Assembly (NCBI GenBank): GCA_025057975.1
Contig: JANWUV010000008.1
Location: 62,001-126,000, forward strand
Direction of reading: 5' to 3'
Origin: Chloracidobacterium sp.
GTDB lineage: Bacteria > Acidobacteriota > Blastocatellia > Chloracidobacteriales > Chloracidobacteriaceae
DNA length: 64,000 bases
Part shown: one piece after another, positions 35,942 to 37,918 of the stretch
Position numbering within the stretch: the stretch's first letter is position 1
Layout of the letters: each line of letters begins with the position of its first letter
Position numbers and translations under genes: made by a program
Notes under the pieces: generated by a model
Databases searched by the model: none
What the model saw: the letters and a program-made list of their open reading frames with translations, nothing else
What the model was told of the DNA's origin: nothing

Positions 35942-37717
35942 CTAGCCGACCGTCGTCGGCAAGTAACGATGCGCCTCGGCTGACGCGACGGCGGACGCCA
36001 AGCCTCCCGCCGGTGACGCAATAACCGCCGTACGAACAGCCGCCATCAGATTTGCCATCAGATTTGGACTTAGTTCCCGACCAATGACGACCAGCGAGCT
36101 TTCCGGCGCGGCCGCGCAAGGATTGAGGTTGAACGACCGCCCGGCATATTCCAAGCGTAACCAGCCGCCGGCCGTCCTAAAGACACCTTTGGCGCGGGCG
36201 ACCTCGCCGAAGCGTCCGGCGGCGATGTCCTCAAACACTTGTTGGAGAGCGGCGGCGTCAAAGGTCTCGGCGAAGGTTTCCGCGCGCTGCTCAAACGCAA
36301 TGCGTGGGGCGAATGTGTCTCCCAGACAGGCGTCTTCCTGCGTGTCGCTCAGGTCGCGCAGGCTAATCCGCCCAAAGCTTGTGTAAAGCATGCGCGCCGT
36401 CGGATTGCAGCGGGCGATCCGGTCGGTAATGCGTTCCAGTTCAGCCTGCGATAGGCTGTCGCACTTGTTGACGATGACCGTCGCGGCGGCCTCAACGTAG
36501 GCTTCAATGGCGCTTTGTACGGCGCGGTCGGCCGTCAGCCATTGCTTGCCGTCCACCACCGCGACGACGCGGATAGGGCCGAGCAGTTCACGACAACCGG
36601 GCTGATGCAGCGTGCCCAGCAAGTCGCCGAGGGCCGCTGCGCCGGACGGCTCAATCAAAATCCGCTCCGGGGCGTAGTCACGGATGAGTTGGGCCAGCGT
36701 CGCTGCGACGTTGCGCGAGAGCGTGCAGCATAGACACCCGCCGGCCATTTCAACCACCGGCGTCGCGTCAGCGTCGCTTTTGGCTTCGCGTAACCGTGCG
36801 CCGTCCAAGCCGACATCAGCGAATTCGTTGACGAGGACGATGGTTTTAGCGTCAAGCTGTGGGATGAGATTCCGCAGCAGCGTGGTTTTGCCGGCGCCGA
36901 GAAAGCCGCCGATGACATCCACCGTCGGCTTGACTTCTGGCGTACGCCGCGAAAGCAGGCCCCATGCCCAGACGCCGACCGGCTGCGGCAGAATCAACCA
37001 CCAGTGTTCGAGAATCGCCAGCGCCATCAGCGTACACGCCAAGCCGTTGGCGGCGACGGTGAAGGCGTCGGTTGCTTGGACGGCGCGGTAAAAGAGCCAG
37101 TGTGCGACGGCCGTGGAAATGGTGACGGAGAAGGGAAAGAACCAGTTGATGGGGCGTTTGGAGAAAAACTGCGTCATGCGACGCAGATGCTCCGGCAAGT
37201 ACTCCTCGTTGAGGTTGCGGACGCCAAAAAACACGTTGAGCTTGGCGGATTGGTGCATCCACCAATGGATGGTAAACGTCCACAGCGCGACCTGATTTGG
37301 TCCTGGCGTCACCGCCCAGACCAGTGCAAAGCCGGCGAAGATGGAGAGTTCGTGAAAGAGGTTGGCCTTGACGCCGTGGACGAAGTGCCGCCATCCGCCG
37401 CAGTTGGGAGCGCAGGGCGGCGTGTCTAAGCCGACGACATAGCCCGTGTAGTAGCTTGTCTCAAACCAGCCCCAGGCGACAATCCCCAGCAAAAATCCCG
37501 CCGCCGCGCCCAGCGGCGTCGTGATGTAGCTAACGCTGGGCATCAACGCCGTCGCCGCCAGCGCCGCCAAGGAAGACAGCACGAACACTGGCCGCCGCCA
37601 ACTCCGGCGACCACAGGCGAAGATAATCCCCACGGTCGCCGCCCACCAGACGGCGACGGCGAACAACGGCAGCCCAAGCCAGAGCAACCACGGGCTTTGT
37701 AGATTCCAATCGGACAT
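35942..37717 (-). CDS. puhE: Fusion: PuhE-family photosynthetic complex assembly domain + CobW/COG0523 GTPase
   Basis: A 591-residue fusion. Residues 1-257 are a polytopic membrane domain of the PuhE (DUF3623) family, which in purple bacteria affects photosynthetic complex assembly. Matches include AWGWFETSYYTGYVVG, FHELSIFAGFALVWAV, SAKLNVFFGVRNLNEEYLP, INWFFPFSVT and LEHWWLILP. Residues 265-591 are a COG0523 (CobW/ZNG1-type) GTPase: Walker A GFLGAGKTT (271-279), VNEFADVG switch, CxCC metal motif GGCLCC (Cys328, 330, 331), NKCD (417-420) and a CobW C-terminal domain. Such GTPases deliver metals, often zinc. The fusion ties metal delivery to assembly of a bacteriochlorophyll protein; Chloracidobacterium reaction centres contain Zn-BChl a'. 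That link is inference. ATG 37717, divergent from mnmG. Confidence 0.93.
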   Translation of the reverse strand: MSDWNLQSPWLLWLGLPLFAVAVWWAATVGIIFACGRRSWRRPVFVLSSLAALAATALMPSVSYITTPLGAAAGFLLGIVAWGWFETSYYTGYVVGLDTPPCAPNCGGWRHFVHGVKANLFHELSIFAGFALVWAVTPGPNQVALWTFTIHWWMHQSAKLNVFFGVRNLNEEYLPEHLRRMTQFFSKRPINWFFPFSVTISTAVAHWLFYRAVQATDAFTVAANGLACTLMALAILEHWWLILPQPVGVWAWGLLSRRTPEVKPTVDVIGGFLGAGKTTLLRNLIPQLDAKTIVLVNEFADVGLDGARLREAKSDADATPVVEMAGGCLCCTLSRNVAATLAQLIRDYAPERILIEPSGAAALGDLLGTLHQPGCRELLGPIRVVAVVDGKQWLTADRAVQSAIEAYVEAAATVIVNKCDSLSQAELERITDRIARCNPTARMLYTSFGRISLRDLSDTQEDACLGDTFAPRIAFEQRAETFAETFDAAALQQVFEDIAAGRFGEVARAKGVFRTAGGWLRLEYAGRSFNLNPCAAAPESSLVVIGRELSPNLMANLMAAVRTAVIASPAGGLASAVASAEAHRYLPTTVG

Positions 37718-37918
37718 CGGCCGAAAAACGGGGGCGCGGAAGGTCGGCCGCGTAACTGATACGCCCAGCCTGCCACCAACCTACTTTGCGCCGGACACGC
37801 ACTGCAATGACATCCCGACCGTAGAGCGGGCGGCGCGCCACCTCGGCTGGTTGTCATCGCGCTCGTCCTGTCGCTAGACTGCCCGACCTGACCCCTTGCT
37901 TGAGGTTTTGCGTCGGCT

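Follow-up and report, generated by a model that had tools for sequence, protein, structure and literature searches.

A PuhE–COG0523 GTPase fusion shared by Chloracidobacterium and Acetobacteraceae is a candidate for zinc transfer in bacteriochlorophyll metabolism

The main established producers of zinc bacteriochlorophyll (Zn-BChl) are Acidiphilium and Chloracidobacterium (PMC7242693, PMC12654162). Acidiphilium makes the pigment consistently and Acidisphaera upon raised zinc (PMC12654162), and in the type-1 reaction centre of Chloracidobacterium the special pair is Zn-BChl a', the remaining pigments being Mg forms (PMC9751088). Reviews of 2020 and 2025 describe the route by which zinc replaces magnesium in both genera as unknown or uncertain (PMC7242693, PMC12654162). 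In A. rubrum, according to the summary of Masuda 1999 given in PMC4944227, insertion of Mg comes first, and the entry of zinc is proposed to follow dechelation; in bchD mutants of R. sphaeroides Zn-BChl is made by ferrochelatase (PMC4944227, PMC5972617).

The systems closest to the gene described here come from four protein groups. Purple-bacterial PuhE (TIGR03055, PF12291) belongs to DUF3623, a family with seven transmembrane (TM) helices (PMC12423673), and its effect on BChl production is known only from R. capsulatus, where the title of a study cited in PMC11762602 presents it as a putative negative modulator. Our protein contains the same domain and is encoded, in Acetobacteraceae, at the usual site after acsF, but it carries a COG0523 GTPase in addition and His instead of Arg at position 155; in Chloracidobacterium it sits in an organism with a type-1 reaction centre, outside any photosynthesis cluster. 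Its GTPase half has the G domain, CxCC, NKxD and CobW_C in common with YjiA, ZigA and CobW, YjiA (PDB 1nij, 4ixm) being the closest solved structure (E 5.5e-15), and differs from other COG0523 GTPases in its seven-TM partner and in forming its own clade against 37 paralogues. Covalent joining of a G3E GTPase chaperone to the protein it serves is known from IcmF, a union of MeaB with its mutase client (PMC9164220), and PuhE would be the corresponding client here; IcmF, however, represents another G3E subfamily, and its cofactor is cobalamin rather than a metal ion. Mg-chelatase BchHID and ferrochelatase carry out the task putatively assigned below to the fusion, metal insertion into tetrapyrroles, but have no domain in common with it, the fusion being membrane-tethered and G3E-based.

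The window, that is, the whole stretch of 64,000 nucleotides of Chloracidobacterium sp. DNA that was analysed, contains the fusion as one 591-residue frame on the minus strand, confirming an earlier note that had reported it from the same positions with no strand given. Its features are as follows.

35942..37717, minus strand: gene of the PuhE–COG0523 fusion protein (591 aa), start codon at 37717 (single uninterrupted frame with Pfam and NCBIfam matches)
36941..37666, minus strand: PuhE/DUF3623 domain, residues 18-259, seven predicted TM helices (PF12291, E 3.2e-66; TIGR03055)
36389..36922, minus strand: COG0523 G domain (cobW), residues 266-443 (PF02492, E 3e-37)
36884..36907, minus strand: Walker A, GFLGAGKT, residues 271-278 (sequence and motif scan)
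36725..36736, minus strand: CxCC metal motif CLCC (in GGCLCC), residues 328-331 (sequence and motif scan)
36458..36469, minus strand: NKxD motif NKCD, residues 417-420 (sequence and motif scan)
36038..36274, minus strand: CobW C-terminal domain (CobW_C), residues 482-560 (PF07683, E 1.4e-9)
37376..37414, minus strand: conserved C102, C106, H111 and H114 in the TM3-TM4 loop, probably cytosolic (alignment; side inferred from charge)
37253..37255, minus strand: H155 of the PuhE half, diagnostic of the fusion clade (alignment and tree)
37769..37808, minus strand: upstream element of 40 bases, candidate promoter (upstream alignment of seven Chloracidobacterium genomes)

All three domain matches (DUF3623, cobW and CobW_C) exceed the curated Pfam cut-offs, and the PuhE equivalog TIGR03055 matches residues 17-254 with 202.8 bits against a cut-off of 164.05 (NCBIfam). 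The motif scan found Walker A, CxCC and NKxD intact, as the earlier note had read them, and with the P-loop, CxCC, NKxD and CobW_C all present the GTPase half is a member of COG0523. The two domains almost abut, with a minimal linker. The label 'zinc-type' goes back to the CxCC motif, which does not by itself specify the metal, COG0523 members being known for zinc, iron and cobalt (PMC9164220). The GTPase half scores 84.7 bits against the cut-off of 600 of the ZigA model NF038288, and it also falls below that of the PRK11537 GTPase model.

The same continuous frame occurs in seven Chloracidobacterium genomes: the window's own, three MAGs and another three from the genus, the last in assemblies of two contigs each that are 99-100% complete. 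Purifying selection acts on both halves, the PuhE part having a median dN/dS of 0.089 and the COG0523 part one of 0.123 across 21 pairs of these sequences. Together with the occurrence in Acetobacteraceae reported below, the shared frame and these ratios rule out an artefact of assembly or annotation. The neighbouring genes, named from their sequence and not by family search, read as ispG and mnmG on the opposite strand; the fusion gene therefore stands alone in Chloracidobacterium. Both flanks are kept in one MAG and the ispG side in two MAGs, and neither gene was matched in the short flanks of the three two-contig genomes. Conservation of the 40-base element 5' of the gene in seven of seven genomes suggests that it has its own promoter. 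Unlike its counterparts in Acetobacteraceae, the Chloracidobacterium gene does not lie in a purple-type photosynthesis cluster beside acsF. Among 396 genomes sampled from the phylum, none outside the genus gave a DUF3623 match above the cut-off; one such acidobacterium (G348) has a match below it (profile positions 10-91; L015:1501-1746) inside an 818-aa frame. The open-licence literature searched contained no description of a PuhE–COG0523 fusion, in line with the earlier note, nor any paper treating PuhE and COG0523 together, and the text of the 2009 COG0523 survey mentions neither fusion or fused proteins nor chlorophyll or photosynthesis.

The fusion is nevertheless not confined to Chloracidobacterium, as its carriers among the Acetobacteraceae demonstrate. 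A full PuhE was found in 26 of 385 Alphaproteobacteria sampled, two of which (G733, G498) have the same fusion and 24 of which do not. In the family of G733, the Acetobacteraceae, a PuhE match is present in 79 of 249 genomes, and 18 carry the fusion; a truncated copy in G855, where the contig ends inside Walker A (VVAGCLGAGKT), brings the count to 19. One more carrier, G1380, came from 398 sampled Pseudomonadota (30 with PuhE); the genomes sampled are those of Acidobacteriota and Pseudomonadota, PuhE being present also in Gemmatimonadota, Myxococcota and other phyla. Pfam recovered both the PuhE and the COG0523 domains in all five non-Chloracidobacterium fusions tested, and three candidates with long frames (L047, L117, L123) were discarded for having no COG0523 domain. 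Plasmid identity gave names to three carriers, and thereby to the family sampled: Acidiphilium multivorum AIU301 (G1012; plasmid pACMV1, 271,573 bp, 100% identity over 7 kb), Rhodovastum atsumiense (G923) and Acidisoma sp. PAMC 29798 (G997), the latter two with intact fusions. A search of plasmid records yielded PuhE in unfused form only.

In the Acetobacteraceae carriers, which have type-2 reaction centres, the fusion gene lies directly 3' of acsF; in G844, for instance, puhA, puhB and further genes are followed by an acsF-like rubrerythrin-family gene, the fusion and 5-aminolevulinate synthase. The Acetobacteraceae proteins have loops rich in His, with as many as 21 His in 40 residues, that are absent from Chloracidobacterium. 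Two fusions, L081:1501-3273 (G857) and L111:1045-2727 (G802), lack CxCC and keep Walker A and NKxD, and thus represent natural variants bearing on the role of the metal. Among other observations on these genomes, the carrier G825 has two pufL loci (L150, L152), and of several nitrogenase-like matches in R. atsumiense (G923) one, at C1:332632-334011, exceeds the curated cut-off for VnfD of vanadium nitrogenase; no other genome passed that cut-off in the vanadium-nitrogenase search.

Both halves of the fusion have a single origin in phylogenetic trees. In the G-domain tree, 24 fused proteins were set against 37 COG0523 proteins that stand alone, from Chloracidobacterium, Acetobacteraceae and Notoacmeibacter; the fused ones group as a single clade (100/97) recovered in all 200 bootstrap trees. 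In the PuhE tree the fused halves, those of Chloracidobacterium included, fall within a 31-row clade (100/97) inside alphaproteobacterial PuhE, and just five rows of this clade were classed as unfused: the truncated G855 together with L085, L101, L106 and L116, the last four clustering with fusions that include the two lacking CxCC (L111, L081). These trees indicate one fusion event, common to Chloracidobacterium and Acetobacteraceae through horizontal transfer; two independent fusions find no support in the G-domain tree. The simplest reading is that the fusion formed in Acetobacteraceae and passed to the ancestor of Chloracidobacterium, with later decay in one sublineage. The transfer would thus have run from Acetobacteraceae to Chloracidobacterium; the Chloracidobacterium branch in the PuhE tree is long (1.62), so that its placement is imprecise.

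The AcsF proteins of Chloracidobacterium (L265-L270) share 38-41% identity with an alphaproteobacterial query from Acetobacteraceae and occupy a very long separate branch, from which it follows that the fusion gene was transferred without its operon partner; the AcsF tree rules out co-transfer. Chloracidobacterium acsF is found on contig C6 and the fusion gene on C8. The window's own genome also encodes on C6 a stand-alone COG0523 protein of 336 aa with the motif GCICC, approximately 2.6 kb from acsF (the two loci being L271:7449-8459 and L271:11061-12161), and in three more genomes (G396, G397, G398) a stand-alone COG0523 gene and acsF lie on one contig about 3 kb apart. This protein could be a second pigment-related metallochaperone.

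Position 155 of the PuhE half is His in every fused protein and Arg in 70 of the 76 rows classed as unfused, and the five such rows that have His are the five inside the fusion clade. C102, C106, H111 and H114 likewise occur throughout the fused proteins but also in some of the unfused ones; this set is hence older than the fusion, and H155 coincides with the clade. Both H155 and the Cys/His set are retained in relatives that no longer have CxCC in the GTPase, or no longer have the GTPase at all. Assuming a cytosolic GTPase, the positive charge of loop 35-43 and the positive-inside rule would place loop 98-117, with the four Cys/His residues, on the same side of the membrane as the GTPase, together with the end of TM7 (E237, H238). 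An AlphaFold run on six sequences gave a mean pLDDT of 55.7 and a pTM of 0.39, too low for judging a metal site, and a PDB sequence search with PuhE returned a single match at the level of noise (E 1.2). A membrane acyltransferase identity, suggested by the former Pfam clan, was discarded, DUF3623 having been excluded from that superfamily (PMC12423673).

The earlier note proposed that the fusion delivers zinc, or another metal, where reaction-centre pigments are inserted, and would have taken restriction to organisms with Zn-BChl a' as support. That restriction fails, the fusion being present in type-2 purple bacteria including R. atsumiense and Acidisoma sp., for neither of which the open-licence literature searched contained a report of Zn-BChl. 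The two carriers bear on a ground for refutation named in the note, occurrence in phototrophs without Zn-BChl, but would count as such only if they truly lack the pigment. What survives is the link to zinc pigments as such, now through one fusion common to makers of Zn-BChl a' and of Zn-BChl a. The known Zn-BChl lineages that were checked, A. multivorum and the seven Chloracidobacterium genomes, are all carriers. A further correlate is Glu at L168 of PufL, which from work on Acidiphilium rubrum we take to be an Acidiphilium hallmark, most other purple bacteria having His. It occurs in four genomes (G806, G1012, G877, G933), all with the fusion, and in none of the 30 other genomes of the family that were read (29 unfused and G855); the four form one clade of the PuhE tree (100/98) and so count as one observation only. 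In a Rhodopila-dominated mat Zn-BChl was undetectable (PMC12542754), the bearing of which depends on whether Rhodopila has the fusion.

We consider the fusion to be a membrane-tethered zinc-transfer GTPase of BChl metabolism with a probability of about 0.45, and likewise put the zinc-delivery idea, in this form broader than the original one, at a little under even odds. We infer zinc as the metal, a tetrapyrrole as the recipient and a hand-over from GTPase to PuhE. The COG0523 domain would bind Zn2+ at CxCC and, on GTP hydrolysis, release it to the PuhE membrane domain joined to it; the Cys/His cluster of that domain, on the cytosolic side, may then pass the zinc to a Mg-free BChl precursor presented by the membrane domain. 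Such a route would account for the special pair of Zn-BChl a' in Chloracidobacterium and for the whole Zn-BChl a pool in Acidiphilium. This reading is favoured by the presence of the fusion in A. multivorum AIU301 and seven Chloracidobacterium genomes, by the single clade of both halves and transfer without acsF, and by the four L168-Glu genomes, all fused, with the intact CxCC and the His-rich Acetobacteraceae loops. A negative-modulator role of PuhE in R. capsulatus, as worded in the cited title, is also consistent with a BChl-handling protein. Against it stand the intact fusions of R. atsumiense and Acidisoma sp. without a Zn-BChl report, and the survival of H155 and the Cys/His set after loss of CxCC or of the GTPase. 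Possible but doubtful is a bolder version, in which the fusion is the missing zinc-inserting or Mg-to-Zn exchanging system, a membrane insertase unrelated to known chelatases that arose a single time, in acid-adapted purple bacteria, and was passed to Chloracidobacterium, enabling its zinc special pair.

It may instead be that the GTPase serves PuhE itself as metal loader or metal sensor, PuhE tuning BChl synthesis by metal or acid status, and that pigment zinc does not come through the fusion. The modulator title cited in PMC11762602 fits such a role, the conserved His, Glu and Cys residues of PuhE are possible metal ligands, among the Acetobacteraceae carriers that could be named is an acidophile not known to make Zn-BChl (PMC7005127), and client-fused G3E chaperones have the precedent of IcmF (PMC9164220); by itself, however, this does not explain why two Zn-BChl lineages share the gene across phyla, and we regard it as rather unlikely. 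The coincidence with zinc could also be chance, if a factor that serves assembly or regulation in acid-adapted Acetobacteraceae was transferred to Chloracidobacterium with no tie to zinc pigment. One fusion and one transfer amount statistically to a single coincidence with Zn-BChl, and carriers without reported Zn-BChl exist. Yet in Chloracidobacterium the gene stands alone and both halves are maintained by purifying selection with no known type-2 centre to assemble, which makes such hitchhiking distinctly unlikely.

If the GTPase provided iron for AcsF, a di-iron cyclase, this would account for the position directly 3' of acsF in Acetobacteraceae, and the COG0523 member Nha3 handles iron (PMC9164220). 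This too seems very unlikely, given that most puhE-bearing Alphaproteobacteria have acsF-puhE without the GTPase and that Chloracidobacterium AcsF was not co-transferred and is encoded on C6 rather than C8. The earlier note had named a cobalamin-specific C-terminal domain as grounds against zinc, and CobW (TIGR02475) is indeed the best-scoring NCBIfam COG0523 model for the domain. Its 99.2 bits are nonetheless far below the equivalog cut-off of 332.1, Chloracidobacterium strains are apparently without B12 synthesis (PMC8245765), and no cobalamin gene was recognised adjoining the fusion gene in the window. Score and apparent B12 inability lead us to reject a cobalamin-pathway CobW, which is improbable in the extreme.

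To our knowledge, Chloracidobacterium has no type-2 reaction centre. With a type-1 centre only, the assumed job of PuhE in assembling purple-bacterial complexes is unlikely there, and it more plausibly acts on pigment; the fusion thus gives a clue to the mechanism of PuhE. Our analysis, going beyond what the earlier note foresaw, finds the fusion in both established Zn-BChl lineages, which belong to different phyla and differ in their type of reaction centre, and provides a concrete candidate for the machinery that places zinc in bacteriochlorophyll. As both lineages would have obtained this one gene through a single fusion and transfer, the zinc question becomes testable through a single gene.
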